From: Polyangium aurulentum | Lineage (GTDB): Bacteria > Myxococcota_A > Polyangia > Polyangiales > Polyangiaceae | Length of the DNA: 64,000 nucleotides | Assembly (NCBI GenBank): GCA_945875545.1 | Contig: CAMCKZ010000001.1 | Location: forward strand, 1 to 64,000 | Direction of reading: 5' to 3' | Shown here: piece after piece, positions 55,591 through 60,793 of the stretch | How positions within the stretch are numbered: the first letter of the stretch is position 1 | Layout of the letters: every line of letters begins with the position of its first letter | Made by a program: the position numbers and the translations under genes | The notes under the pieces: generated by a model | What the model saw: only the letters and a program-made list of their open reading frames with translations | What the model was told of the DNA's origin: nothing | The model's database searches: none

Positions 55591-57216
55591 TCAGGTGTCG
55601 GTGATGTCGGTCATGCTCATGAGGCCCTGAGGCAGGCCCACTTCGCGATCGAGGGCCGCCTGCGTTTGGTCGAACCACTGTTGCGTTTCGGCGTGGGTAT
55701 CGCCGATGCAGGTGATGCCCACCTTGCCGAACTGACTGAGGGCGCCCGTGAGCTGGAAGATGACGCCGGAGTCCGTCCAGGGGCGGTAATGGAGGCCGTG
55801 AACCGCGGCGATGTCGAGGAGGTCTTCGACCGCGAGCCCTTTGTACTCGGGCCGCATCAAGCTGTCGCTCGCGACGTAGCAGCGCTCTTCGCCGCGACGC
55901 GTGCGGAATACACCCGTCGCGGGATCGTACTTTCCGTCGTTGACGAGCTTCATGAGTTTGAGCGGATGCGTGGTGCCGCTCATACGAAGGTTGATCTCGA
56001 TGGCCGACCTGCCCCACGTGCCATCGGGGTTTCGGAACGTCACAAAGTCGACGGCGGCGCGCCCAATAACGCCCTTCGAGACGAGCACGCGGCCGACCTT
56101 CATGGCGTCTGCTTGGATGGCGAGGCGGTACTCGGGATCGGCCGGAAACCGGCACCCGAGGTAGGTCTGGCCGTCGGCTCCGAGAATTTGATCGTGCGTT
56201 GAAATAGCCTGCAATTCGCCGCGCGGATTGATTCGCAGTTGCGCGCTCGGGCTGTTCTTATCGACGCCCTCGACGAACGCTTCAACGACGCCGCCGAGGG
56301 CTTGCATGCGGCTCCGAAACGAGGCCCAATTTTCGTGTTTCGCAAAAAACCGCATGTGCGGCAAGGCCCCGATCACGGCCTCTACACGGCCCGAATGACT
56401 CGCTTGGCCCGGCGCCGCTCCGTCGAGGGGTGCCAGGTCCAAACACGCGTTGCCTTCGCCGCTAAAGCCGTCGTCGTGCTTCACCATCACGCGGCGCAAC
56501 GTGGGATCGTCTTCCCACATACCGGCCACCGCTTCGCCCACTTCGCGCTCGCTTCGAACGTCTTCGGCACCGGCAGGAAACGGAATGCCCGCCGCACGAA
56601 ATGCCTTGCGCGAACCGGACTTGGTACCGAGGTGCACAAGCTCCGGATCGAGCCCGTAAAGCGGAATGCCAATGCGCACCGCAAGCGATCGCTCGCGATG
56701 CGTAGCGGCGAAGCACATCATGTAGGCGCGATCCGGATCGATGGACCGACGAATGCGTTCGATCAACCGCGGGCGCTCAAGAACCTTCTCGGTGAGCGGC
56801 TTCGGAGTGGCGTCGTAACACGAGAGAAACGACACGCGTTCGCGCACGTGAGCCGACGGAATGCCTGAAATTTGCGCGATAATGTAATCGATCGTCGCGG
56901 GATGCATAGGCTGGCTCGTCACGTAGACGATACGCGCCCGCGCATGCCGGAGCATGGCGAGGGAAAAGAGCATGCGTTCTTCGTAGTGGTTGAAACCCGC
57001 CACCGACGAATACGACATGCCCTCGAGGGAGAGCGACGGCACGACGACGATGTAACGGCGACCCGCGTCGAGGGATCGAACCTTTTCCCAAGCGTCGAGG
57101 AGCTTCGATTGGAGCCCGGCAAAGCGCTCAAGTTCTTCGTCGGGGGTCGGCGGAGGGTTCGAGCGGAAAGCCGTGGGAAGGCGGTGAGGCTGGGAGCTCT
57201 CGAGGTCAAAGCGCAT
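55591..57216 (-). CDS. ATP-grasp peptide ligase, PGM1-related
   Basis: 541 residues. It matches the peptide-ligase PGM1 group of ATP-grasp enzymes: an N-terminal Rossmann-like region with VVPSLSL and HYEERMLFSLAMLRHA, VYVTSQPMHPATIDYII, KVLERPRLIERIRR, GTKSGSRKAFRAAG, VKHDDGFSGEGNA and, near the end, EINLRMSGTTHP (metal/ATP ligands). PGM1 joins a guanidino-type amino acid to a ribosomal peptide in pheganomycin. The ATG at 57216 is preferred over a GTG at 57228. Last gene of a minus-strand series, following a 14-bp-stem hairpin. Substrate unknown. Confidence 0.85.
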   Translation of the reverse strand: MRFDLESSQPHRLPTAFRSNPPPTPDEELERFAGLQSKLLDAWEKVRSLDAGRRYIVVVPSLSLEGMSYSSVAGFNHYEERMLFSLAMLRHARARIVYVTSQPMHPATIDYIIAQISGIPSAHVRERVSFLSCYDATPKPLTEKVLERPRLIERIRRSIDPDRAYMMCFAATHRERSLAVRIGIPLYGLDPELVHLGTKSGSRKAFRAAGIPFPAGAEDVRSEREVGEAVAGMWEDDPTLRRVMVKHDDGFSGEGNACLDLAPLDGAAPGQASHSGRVEAVIGALPHMRFFAKHENWASFRSRMQALGGVVEAFVEGVDKNSPSAQLRINPRGELQAISTHDQILGADGQTYLGCRFPADPEYRLAIQADAMKVGRVLVSKGVIGRAAVDFVTFRNPDGTWGRSAIEINLRMSGTTHPLKLMKLVNDGKYDPATGVFRTRRGEERCYVASDSLMRPEYKGLAVEDLLDIAAVHGLHYRPWTDSGVIFQLTGALSQFGKVGITCIGDTHAETQQWFDQTQAALDREVGLPQGLMSMTDITDT

Positions 57217-57274
57217 GGACGATGGCACACGCCAATCGTCGCGGTTTTTTCGCGATCAGGGAAGCCCGTAAATG

Positions 57275-57309
57275 CCGAGAGGCACCAACTTATGATTGGT
57301 GCCTCTCGG
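57275..57309. other. Perfect 14-bp hairpin between two ligase genes
   Basis: Inverted repeat with arms CCGAGAGGCACCAA / TTGGTGCCTCTCGG and a seven-base loop, lying between the two ATP-grasp genes. There is no T-run directly after either arm, so it is not a standard intrinsic terminator; it could act in mRNA processing, stability or attenuation. Confidence 0.85.
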
Positions 57310-57333
57310 TCGATGCTCAGAAACGCGGGCGGC

Positions 57334-58362
57334 CTATTTTTTCTTCTTGGCCGATTCGCTCTTCGGGGCCGCCGCCGCATTGAGCCGGGCCACAGGGCCG
57401 AGATCGTTCGCGTGGGCACCGCCCGCAATCCACTCTTGGAAGAGGTGGCGCTTTGGGGGAGCGATTTTGCCCTTGACGATGCCCACCGTGAACTGGGCCA
57501 TCTGATCGACGACGAGGTCGAAATAGTGCTCTGTTATCGACCACTTATCCATGTCCGGGGCAGGGTTCGTGAAGTCGATCGCGTAGGGCACGCCGTCTTT
57601 GATCGCGAACTCCACGGAGTTCATGTCGTAGCCGAGGCCGTGGCATAGCTTCCACGCGCCATCGACGACTTTTTGGTTCAGATCGGCACCGAGCCAGTCG
57701 GGTTCTTCAACGAGGTACCGGCCCATGCCGATGGGACCGCGCAATTTGGGATCGTAGTGAATCGGCAAAATGAAGTCGCGGCCGATGCAGATGCAGCGCA
57801 CGTAGTTGTCGAAGTCGATGAACTCTTGGAGCGTCATCGGGAGGATGTCGCTTTTGTTGTAAGCTACAAACAGTTCTTCGATGTTGTTGACTTTGGTGAC
57901 GTGCTTCCAGCCGCCGCCCTGGGCGGGTTTCAAGATCGCGGGAAAGCCGATGTACTTGCAAATTCCCTCCCAATCGATGGGGAACTCGAGGTTGCGCAGC
58001 GAGCGCTGCTTGTCGATGGCGGGAATGTATTCGCGCTGAGGGAGCAGCACGGTTTTTGGAACGGTGACGCCGAGCTTTGCTGCCACGCTGAAGCCAAAAA
58101 ACTTGTCGTCTGCGGACCACCAAAGGGGGTCGTTGATGCAGTAGGTACCCGCGAGCTGCGCCGCCTTCAGGTGAAGCCTGTAGTGCTCAACTTCTTGAGA
58201 AATGCGATCGATGAGCACGGAGTATTTTTTCTCGAATCGCTCGTCGGTGCCGCCAATTTTGGCGAGCTCCGCGGTGACGCCAGACTCCTTGTTCACGCGA
58301 TCGATAAACGCGGGAGGGAAAGTGTTTTCCCAGCCAACCAACAGGCCGATGCGCTCCGACAT
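57334..58362 (-). CDS. ATP-grasp carboxylate-amine ligase, unknown substrate
   Basis: 342 residues, ATP-grasp fold: FPAILKPAQGGGWKHV (phosphate-binding loop) around 155-170, adenine-side LQEFIDFDNYV, and metal ligands in SVEFAIKDGVPYAIDFTNPAPD. Family beyond ATP-grasp is not clear. ATG at 58362 has GAGGAG five bases upstream. A lysine-rich tail (SESAKKKK) ends it. It lies between the GATase-like gene and the PGM1-type ligase on the same strand, so the three are probably one pathway. Confidence 0.85.
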   Translation of the reverse strand: MSERIGLLVGWENTFPPAFIDRVNKESGVTAELAKIGGTDERFEKKYSVLIDRISQEVEHYRLHLKAAQLAGTYCINDPLWWSADDKFFGFSVAAKLGVTVPKTVLLPQREYIPAIDKQRSLRNLEFPIDWEGICKYIGFPAILKPAQGGGWKHVTKVNNIEELFVAYNKSDILPMTLQEFIDFDNYVRCICIGRDFILPIHYDPKLRGPIGMGRYLVEEPDWLGADLNQKVVDGAWKLCHGLGYDMNSVEFAIKDGVPYAIDFTNPAPDMDKWSITEHYFDLVVDQMAQFTVGIVKGKIAPPKRHLFQEWIAGGAHANDLGPVARLNAAAAPKSESAKKKK

Positions 58363-58497
58363 ATGTGCTCCTCAATCGTATGCGGGACCAAAGCTGGCCT
58401 CGCGGTATCGTTGTCGCAAAGCCCAGCGCCACGCTCAAGTAGAACTTTTGCCGCGAAGAGTTTTAGCGTGAAGCGCGACCGCTGGCGTTGACGCCCC

Positions 58498-59445
58498 TTA
58501 AGGTGCCGAGGGAAGGTCTGGATGCATTCCGAGCAGTACCGAAAGATCGGCACCGGAAAGGGCTTCCACGGGGCCGTACGGCATGCCGTCCCACCCACGG
58601 GCGGCGGAAATGGCGTTAAATCGGCGCCGCATCCACCCGGGAATAACCTCGTGATGCACCCGCGCGACCCGCTCGGGGTTTTTGATCGTCTTGAGCATGC
58701 GGTCGAAGGTGAGGTCGCCGTAGCTATCGACGAAGGCGCGCTGTTGCTCGGGGCGATCGATCCAATTGAAGATGCCCGCGAGGTCGGCTTCAGGATGAAA
58801 CTGCACGGTCTCGATGGCCTCGCCGACGTTGAACGCCAGCACCGCAAAGCCCTTGTCGTCTTGGCCCTCGCGGGATTCGCGCGCAAGAATCGAGCCGTTG
58901 AGGGCCGCGAGCCGTTTTTCGTCGAGGTTGATGACCTCCCAATTGCGATGCTCGAACGCAAAAAGCCGATCGCCAAATGGCGCCAACAGCGGGTGCCGAC
59001 GGCCTGCCGCCGTCGTGTAGACGGGCATCACGCCGAACTTGCGGCCGTCGCGCGGAATGACCTCGGCGATGTTCAAGTGCATCGTCACGAGTTCGTAAGA
59101 ATAGCAGATGGCGAACATCGCGGGCGCGTCGCCGGGATCGCGATCGTGCGCCTCGACGAGGCCGTCGCTGAAACGCCGAAAATCATCGTACCACGGCGTG
59201 CCCAGGCCCTCGAGCGGCGACCCCGGACCACCACTCGCAATGTACAAATCTTGGTCGCGCGGAATGGGGTTCAGCGTGTCGCGCGGACTCACGGAACGGA
59301 CCTCGATGGGCAGCGTGGGATTCGACTCGCGAAGCTCGCCCTCAAATCGTGCGATGACCGATTGCAGGCACCGCATTGCCTGATTCTCGACCCCCGCGTT
59401 CATGTCGATAAAGCAGACTTTCACGGGGGGAGGCGCGGCGGGCAT
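58498..59445 (-). CDS. Class-I glutamine-amidotransferase-like protein
   Basis: 315 residues. Class-I GATase fold with SGGPGSP, nucleophile elbow FAICYSYEL (Cys114) and the catalytic His217/Glu219 in FHPEAD. The elbow departs from the usual G-x-C-x-G-x-Q, which may mean a different substrate or hydrolase activity, though the triad is intact. ATG at 59445 with GGAG/AAGG upstream; longer frames run into the divergent gene. First gene of the minus-strand ligase series; probably supplies ammonia or trims a gamma-glutamyl-type product (inference). Confidence 0.85.
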   Translation of the reverse strand: MPAAPPPVKVCFIDMNAGVENQAMRCLQSVIARFEGELRESNPTLPIEVRSVSPRDTLNPIPRDQDLYIASGGPGSPLEGLGTPWYDDFRRFSDGLVEAHDRDPGDAPAMFAICYSYELVTMHLNIAEVIPRDGRKFGVMPVYTTAAGRRHPLLAPFGDRLFAFEHRNWEVINLDEKRLAALNGSILARESREGQDDKGFAVLAFNVGEAIETVQFHPEADLAGIFNWIDRPEQQRAFVDSYGDLTFDRMLKTIKNPERVARVHHEVIPGWMRRRFNAISAARGWDGMPYGPVEALSGADLSVLLGMHPDLPSAP

Positions 59446-59614
59446 GACCCTTAACTCCGTATCACGGGACCCCTGCCGGTACGAAGTGGCCGTTAAAGTA
59501 TTTTGGGGAAGAGGTGAGAAATTCTTCGGATTTCGGGCGGCTAGCCCACGGTTCTTGCATGAAATGCGGTGAAAGCTCGACACCACCCCAAGACGCTGTT
59601 TCAAGGGGGTGTCC

Positions 59615-60793
59615 ATGGCCGCCGAATCGTCGTCGTCTCCCCCGCCCGTTGAAAGTATCAGTCCACCGCCGGGACTGCCGAATGTTGGGCCCCTTGCGAG
59701 CCGCATGGAGACCAATGCGGACTTCACGGGGCGCGGCATCACGATCGCGTTTATCGATTCGGGCTTCTACGCGCACCCGGACCTCACCGAACCGCGGAAC
59801 CGCATCCTCGTTCACTACGATGTTCGCGCCGGAGTGACGACGATTCGCGCGTGCCCGCCCCCCGACGTCAGTTCGTGGCACGGCATGATGACGAGCGTCG
59901 TGTGCGCGGGCAATGGCCACCTTTCGAAGGGCCGATACGAGGGTTTGGCACCGGACGCCGAGGTGGTTCTTCTCAAGGCAGGAACCGTCGGGCGCATTGC
60001 CCATCACGACATTCGTCGCGGCATCGATTGGGCGATCAAGCACCGCGAAGAATACGCGATTCGCGTGCTGAATATTTCGTGCGGCGGCGATTACGAGGCC
60101 ACGTACGTCGACGACCCCATTTGCCGCGCCGTCGAAGAAGCCACGCGTGTGGGCATCGTGGTTGTGGCCGCCGTGGGCAACGCCGGGTGGAATACGAGCC
60201 ATCGCGTGCTGCCTCCCGCAAGCTCCCCCGCCGCCATCACCGTGGGCGGAATCGACGACGCGAAAGACGCCATGATCGGGCGCGTGGGCATGTACCACTC
60301 GAGTTTCGGGCCCACCATCGATGGCCTTCAGAAGCCAGAAATCACAGCGCAAGCGAACTGGGTTGTGGCACCGATCCTTCCGCAAACGCCCACCTCGGCG
60401 CAGGCGCAACTTCTCGACGGCCTCGTGCGCTGCGCAACCGACGAAGAGGCCAAGGCGTTGCTTCTCGCGAACGCGGGCGTCGATGCGGATCTCGATGCGG
60501 TCGTGAACCGCGAAAGTTACTTTCTCAAGAACCTCCTCGACATCAAAAGGCGCGATCAAAAAATCGTTTCGGGTCACTACAAATACGTCGACGGCACCTC
60601 GTTTGCGGCACCGATCGTCAGTGCCGTGGTCGCGCAGATGCTCGAAGCGAATCCGCAACTCGCGCCGTACCAAGTGAAGAAGATTTTGATCGACACCGCA
60701 ACGAGGTTGCCAAACGTGCCCGTGGACCGCCAAGGTTGGGGCGTTATCAACCCGGCAAACGCTGTAAAAAAAGCTCAAAAGTGCCGATTGTGA
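59615..60793 (+). CDS. Cytoplasmic-type S8 subtilisin-like protease
   Basis: 392 residues. Serine protease triad Asp48 (IAFIDSGFY), His89 (SSWHGMMTS) and Ser329 (VDGTSFAAP), plus the oxyanion Asn in VGNAGW. No signal peptide: the N-terminus is a short Ser/Pro-rich stretch. The ~60-residue insertion between Asn and Ser regions (about 240-310) is unusual for small subtilases. AAGGGGGT precedes the ATG. Divergent from the amidotransferase/ligase series with only 169 bases between, so probably part of the same system, perhaps as a processing protease. Confidence 0.9.
   Translation: MAAESSSSPPPVESISPPPGLPNVGPLASRMETNADFTGRGITIAFIDSGFYAHPDLTEPRNRILVHYDVRAGVTTIRACPPPDVSSWHGMMTSVVCAGNGHLSKGRYEGLAPDAEVVLLKAGTVGRIAHHDIRRGIDWAIKHREEYAIRVLNISCGGDYEATYVDDPICRAVEEATRVGIVVVAAVGNAGWNTSHRVLPPASSPAAITVGGIDDAKDAMIGRVGMYHSSFGPTIDGLQKPEITAQANWVVAPILPQTPTSAQAQLLDGLVRCATDEEAKALLLANAGVDADLDAVVNRESYFLKNLLDIKRRDQKIVSGHYKYVDGTSFAAPIVSAVVAQMLEANPQLAPYQVKKILIDTATRLPNVPVDRQGWGVINPANAVKKAQKCRL

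Follow-up and report, generated by a model that had tools for sequence, protein, structure and literature searches.

In the 64,000-nucleotide stretch of DNA analysed here (the window), three neighbouring genes, encoding an ATP-grasp ligase (A1), a GATase-fold protein and an S8 protease, form the core of a module that is held together by co-occurrence rather than by a single operon, its genes being scattered in many genomes (Sorangium-type). Their grouping is not due to chance. We tentatively assign this core, with A1 paired to a second ligase, to a pathway for a peptide or gamma-glutamyl conjugate, at slightly below even probability. The carriers are a set of myxobacteria from soil and fresh water, and in our best model the module is a conserved Polyangiales pathway.

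Gene content of the window

A reading of the sequence alone (the sequence-only reading) had described GATase-like, ATP-grasp and PGM1-type genes on the minus strand with a divergent S8 protease, and all four reading frames proved open and complete (Table 1). A CcmH-like domain protein (PF03918, 54805-55512) adjoins the cluster on the other strand, with no link to the module seen.

Table 1 Features of the module region in the window
Feature	Coordinates	Strand	Basis
PGM1/BesA-type ATP-grasp amide ligase (predicted), 541 residues	55591-57216	-	PF18105 and PF24923 above cut-off; BesA structure match
Hairpin in the A1/PGM1-type gene interval	57275-57309	-	14-nt perfect inverted repeat; 15-bp stem
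A1, RimK/LysX/Ddl-type ATP-grasp ligase (predicted), 342 residues	57334-58362	-	Fold; TIGR00768; invariant residues
Class-I GATase-fold enzyme (predicted) with helical C-terminal extension, 315 residues	58498-59445	-	Fold; invariant triad; co-distribution
Spacer separating the divergent S8 and GATase genes	59446-59614	.	<350 bp spacing in 14 genomes
S8 (subtilase) serine protease, apparently cytosolic type, 392 residues	59615-60793	+	PF00082; invariant catalytic residues; co-distribution

A1, GATase and S8 co-occur across related genomes

Among 59 related genomes, with presence of A1 and GATase called at E<1e-70, both proteins were found in the identical 18 genomes and in none of the remainder, and the S8 protease accompanied them in 17 of these 18 and in 0/41 others, G005 and G033 having just a ~39% paralog. 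Fisher tests, which ignore shared ancestry, gave P-values of 1.5e-15 for the pair of A1 and GATase and of 6e-14 for S8. Shared ancestry alone does not explain this pattern, because the presence of the module varies within families f1 and f6 with its genes changing together (in f6, G197 carries them and G041 and G055 do not). In a sample of 189 genomes from across the phylum, with a handful of very weak GATase matches disregarded, strong matches to A1, GATase and S8 coincided in five genomes (G000, G002, G022, G027 and G197), and the extras comprised one partial A1 match (G007) and one lone S8 match (G220).

The arrangement of the genes recurs among relatives down to ~40% identity. In 14 genomes, fewer than 350 bp separate the divergently oriented GATase and S8 genes; the distance is 1.5 kb in one more genome and 1.8–7.5 kb in three. 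A1 lies downstream of GATase on the same strand in eight; elsewhere, parts of the module are far apart or on separate contigs and still co-occur. MurJ, an amine oxidase and other neighbours of GATase in Sorangium-type genomes were considered as further members and set aside, as they look like local synteny. In five large-genome relatives (L120, L122, L123, L124 and L126), A1 is closely preceded by genes for tRNA-Val and tRNA-Asp.

The second ligase is replaceable

The sequence-only reading had treated the PGM1-type ligase as one of a set of four genes and had suggested a genome-neighbourhood search as the check. That search bore out A1, GATase and S8, which co-occur almost perfectly and are often neighbours, and it detached the PGM1-type ligase, which is distributed independently. 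This ligase was found in 12 of the 59 relatives (5/18 module genomes versus 7/41 others; P=0.48, Fisher test ignoring shared ancestry) and, weak matches included, in 56 of the 189 phylum genomes. We therefore rejected a fixed four-gene operon, and the proposed set resolves into a three-gene core plus a replaceable ligase.

The slot beside A1 usually holds a GCS2/YbdK-type carboxylate-amine ligase (NCBIfam PRK13515, E=4.7e-155; match to YbdK, PDB 1r8g), which forms a same-strand tandem with A1, at most 1.5 kb apart, in 24 genomes; the window has the PGM1-type ligase instead. A gamma-glutamyl ligase standing in tandem with an ATP-grasp ligase would be the mark of a glutathione-like two-ligase pathway, a possible reading of the GCS2/A1 pairs. 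Thirteen of the 18 module genomes carry GCS2 and no PGM1-type ligase, and the other five (the window's genome, G001, G002, G022 and G042) carry the PGM1-type ligase and no GCS2. For an independent set of 17 GATase-bearing genomes outside the 18 (16 from a separate scan plus G197), the presence of GCS2 was predicted and was observed in 17/17; a PGM1 homolog was absent from 14 of them, and the three others, close relatives, have a 43–45% homolog belonging to a separate clade. Overall, GCS2 is present in 30 of 35 module genomes, and the remaining five carry the PGM1-type ligase.

The protein encoded at 55591-57216 scores above the curated cut-offs for both the IQCH-like ATP-grasp domain (PF24923, 95.4 versus 27 bits) and its PGM1_C partner (PF18105, 44.4 versus 22.5 bits), the combination that defines the PGM1/BesA type. 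Over residues 74-508 it matches the structure of BesA (8yi6, E=6.4e-38), named L-propargylglycine-L-glutamate ligase, and it reaches 155.4 bits against the cut-off of 750 for the BesA equivalog NF042917; by these scores it is predicted to be a BesA relative and not BesA itself. It resembles the pheganomycin ligase PGM1 and BesA in its PGM1_C domain and BesA-like match, and differs from them in having no precursor peptide, in its neighbours and in falling far under the equivalog score. As its curated name conveys, BesA forms a gamma-glutamyl amide. GCS2 enzymes form gamma-glutamyl amides (PMC2588565), and because both ligase classes include makers of such amides, we read the PGM1-type ligase as a probable replacement for the GCS2-type ligase.

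This replacement is clear in one clade only. In the window, G001 and G042, A1 is immediately followed by the PGM1-type gene (with 4 bp between the called genes in G042), and trees join the genus of the window with G042 both for A1 (SH-aLRT 88) and for the PGM1-type protein (SH-aLRT 82), a grouping consistent with one replacement. The G022 copy of the PGM1-type gene sits on a different contig and clusters in the tree with that of a genome without the module, which makes an ambiguous case for replacement. If a swap from GCS2 to a PGM1/BesA-type ligase did take place, it would hint at the reaction of the widespread PGM1-type enzymes of Myxococcota.

Predicted folds and catalytic residues of the core proteins

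A1 matches the RimK alpha-L-glutamate ligase family at a score well below the family level (TIGR00768, E=5.9e-10, 39 bits versus a cut-off of 143.4). The nearest folds to its AlphaFold model (modest confidence, pLDDT 69) are RimK, the graspetide ligase AMdnB, LysX/ArgX and Ddl, with the graspetide ligase MdnC likewise among the matches, and Lys145, Glu251, Asp263 and Asn266 are invariant in the alignment. It thus has its fold and ATP-grasp residues in common with RimK and LysX/ArgX ligases, although it is only ~14–17% identical to their solved members and falls short of the TIGR00768 cut-off. We therefore class A1 as a predicted distant relative of the RimK family, weakly by profile and more clearly by modelled fold. 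In four genomes, A1 is adjoined by a weakly matching permuted ATP-grasp (CP_ATPgrasp_2).

The structure model of the GATase-like protein (pLDDT 82) matches class-I GATase folds, DnfC first, with Arabidopsis gamma-glutamyl peptidase 1 within the top ten and GMP synthase-type and other glutaminase folds also among the matches. Cys114, His217 and Glu219, the Cys-His-Glu triad characteristic of class-I GATases, are invariant across 23 orthologs. Because its PF00117 score lies under the Pfam gathering score (13.2 versus 22.8 bits) yet its modelled fold is that of a GATase, we class it as a divergent class-I GATase-fold protein. Its modelled fold and its triad are those of gamma-glutamyl peptidase 1, at 12–14% identity, and the window protein has extra C-terminal helices.

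The protein at 59615-60793 belongs to peptidase family S8 both by PF00082 (E=1.8e-39, 136.2 versus a cut-off of 21.8 bits) and by its Asp/His/Ser triad, with Asp48, His89, Asn189 and Ser329 invariant across 19 orthologs. No signal peptide was seen in it, as the sequence-only reading had noted, and several orthologs begin right before or at the catalytic core, leaving little room for a propeptide; because of these starts, the protease appears to be cytosolic and to lack a propeptide. Assignments to the PatA/PatG cyanobactin proteases (TIGR03895, 40.2 versus 421 bits) and to the mycosins (TIGR03921, 113.9 versus 278.75 bits) were rejected as below cut-off, and a defence-system reading was dropped after PADLOC gave the protease no more than generic subtilase and weak IetS matches. 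A family-specific insert of ~65 residues (residues ~256-320) precedes the catalytic Ser and is followed by an invariant HYK.VDG motif.

A probable orphan partner family and a search for a precursor

A family of ~410-residue proteins, F57 (for example L114:8523-9764), occurs in 16/18 module genomes and in 0/41 others, and is a probable partner of the module. It gave no Pfam or NCBIfam match and no convincing PDB match; a conserved lysine motif noticed by eye had suggested an ATP-grasp, and profile comparison with a permuted ATP-grasp family and A1 lent this no support. In some genomes, F57 has an esterase, a second A1-like ATP-grasp or both as neighbours; it is absent from the window's own genome (97.5% complete) and from G022.

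In the intergenic stretches and within 3 kb of the genes, we found no precursor ORF common to different genera once tRNA-derived and antisense artefacts were put aside: what looked like small ORFs common to Sorangium-type genomes were tRNA genes read as protein, and further ones lie antisense to A1. Nor was a carrier or LysW-like C-terminal motif found near the genes. The sequence-only reading, which had seen no precursor peptide gene in the window, is thereby extended across genera, and the absence of a conserved small ORF nearby therefore disfavours a RiPP precursor or a carrier protein encoded nearby.

Proposed pathway and alternative explanations

Gene content, catalytic residues, co-distribution, adjacency and the replacement pattern were observed here; in the following proposal, we infer all substrates, the sequence in which the steps follow and which way the GATase reaction runs. 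The replaceable ligase, usually of GCS2/YbdK type and of PGM1/BesA type in the window's genus and one other family, would join the gamma-carboxylate of glutamate to an amine to form a first amide. A1 would then add a further amino acid or couple the first product to a peptide. The Cys-His-Glu triad of the GATase may hydrolyse a gamma-glutamyl amide, in trimming or recycling, or may supply ammonia, and the S8 protease would cut a peptide or protein partner, releasing or clearing it. The role in peptide or amino-acid conjugation put forward by the sequence-only reading stays the best one, with the PGM1-type gene no longer a fixed member. A more specific version, which we regard as possible and short of probable, is an undescribed lineage-specific peptide-conjugation pathway of four parts inherited together (RimK-like ATP-grasp, GATase-fold hydrolase, cytosolic S8 and F57) with the gamma-glutamyl step swapped between the unrelated GCS2 and PGM1/BesA-type folds.

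Several points speak against the proposed conjugate pathway. The scattering of the genes in many genomes, the restriction of a clear replacement to one clade and the hairpin after A1 all weigh on this side. It would be unusual for a subtilase to work on a substrate as short as a di- or tripeptide, and a small gamma-glutamyl peptide alone therefore leaves the protease unexplained. Furthermore, the best fold match of the modelled GATase is DnfC and not gamma-glutamyl peptidase 1, and such matches would not separate a hydrolase from an ammonia donor. An ammonia donor would suit a glutamine-dependent amide synthase, in which GATase-derived ammonia would be used by A1 to amidate a carboxylate, as in CarA/CarB, with the other ligases and the protease acting before or after. 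A1 and GATase are indeed the tightest pair (18/18) and stand in tandem in eight genomes, and the GATase matches include GMP synthase-type and other glutaminase folds; however, the closest folds to A1 (RimK, LysX/ArgX and Ddl) are users of amino-acid amines and not of ammonia, A1 lies beside a second ligase in most genomes, and S8 is given no role, so that we consider this explanation unlikely.

Protein or peptide tagging would accommodate the protease, since an intracellular S8 enzyme would normally need a polypeptide substrate. Here, A1 and the second ligase would attach glutamate or some other residue to a host protein, at its C terminus or on side chains; the GATase would take off gamma-linked residues, and S8 would remove the tag or degrade the tagged protein. 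The best fold matches of A1 include RimK and LysX/ArgX, whose substrates are the C termini of proteins, and the Pup ligase has its closest kin in GCS2-type ligases (PMC2588565); this explanation nevertheless lacks a known target, neither a LysW-like carrier nor a conserved small ORF was found near the genes, and we judge it improbable. We give still less weight to a RiPP pathway of pheganomycin or graspetide type with its precursor encoded elsewhere, which we hold to be very unlikely: the PGM1_C domain, the AMdnB and MdnC matches of A1 and a weak PatA-like similarity of the protease are in its favour, but precursor ORFs common to different genera are missing within 3 kb, most module genomes lack the PGM1-type gene, and the cluster has no transporter.

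The conjugate pathway that we prefer has parallels among described systems. Glutathione-like peptides have been proposed as the product of a GS-fold ligase family whose genes stand next to that of a GATase-like thiol peptidase (PMC2588565), and linked ligases have been proposed to act in succession (PMC4431377). The neighbourhoods of Iyer et al. 2008 (PMC2588565) combine a GS-fold carboxylate-amine ligase with a GATase-like enzyme as the module does, whereas the module adds a RimK-like ATP-grasp and S8, and the window has a PGM1-type ligase in place of GCS2; the ligase family in question is a GCS2-sized relative and not GCS2, and its amidotransferase-like peptidase may be of another class. A literature search, with the amidoligase neighbourhoods of Iyer et al. 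2009 outside its reach, returned no description of this gene set. These comparisons point to a variant on known amidoligase neighbourhoods, and the near-constant joint occurrence of A1, GATase and S8 points to a so far undescribed pathway that builds or attaches small peptides. GATase and the GCS2 ligase are also present in the cultured Sorangium cellulosum and Minicystis rosea; the module is a coherent unit, and its product may be a new peptide of low molecular weight or else a new protein tag.

Intergenic regions

Within the window's genus, the intergenic stretches are conserved only at the ribosome-binding region, at a hairpin and in short elements that look regulatory. The S8/GATase interval has no conserved small ORF and is poorly conserved within the genus save for a short element upstream of GATase, near TCGTACCGGCA and CCGTGATAC (GATase strand), which is kept in three species. 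The hairpin, just after A1, has a predicted energy of -29 kcal/mol (z=-7.5), and its stem is kept in two congeners though both arms differ in sequence; a search for known RNA elements gave no Rfam match. It is a possible terminator or attenuator, and argues against simple co-transcription of A1 and the PGM1-type gene in this genus. In G002, contigs C160 and C337 (L003:1-376 and the end of L132) overlap by ~85 bp in the same interval, and C160 runs on into an open frame resembling a phage terminase, probably an assembly branch.
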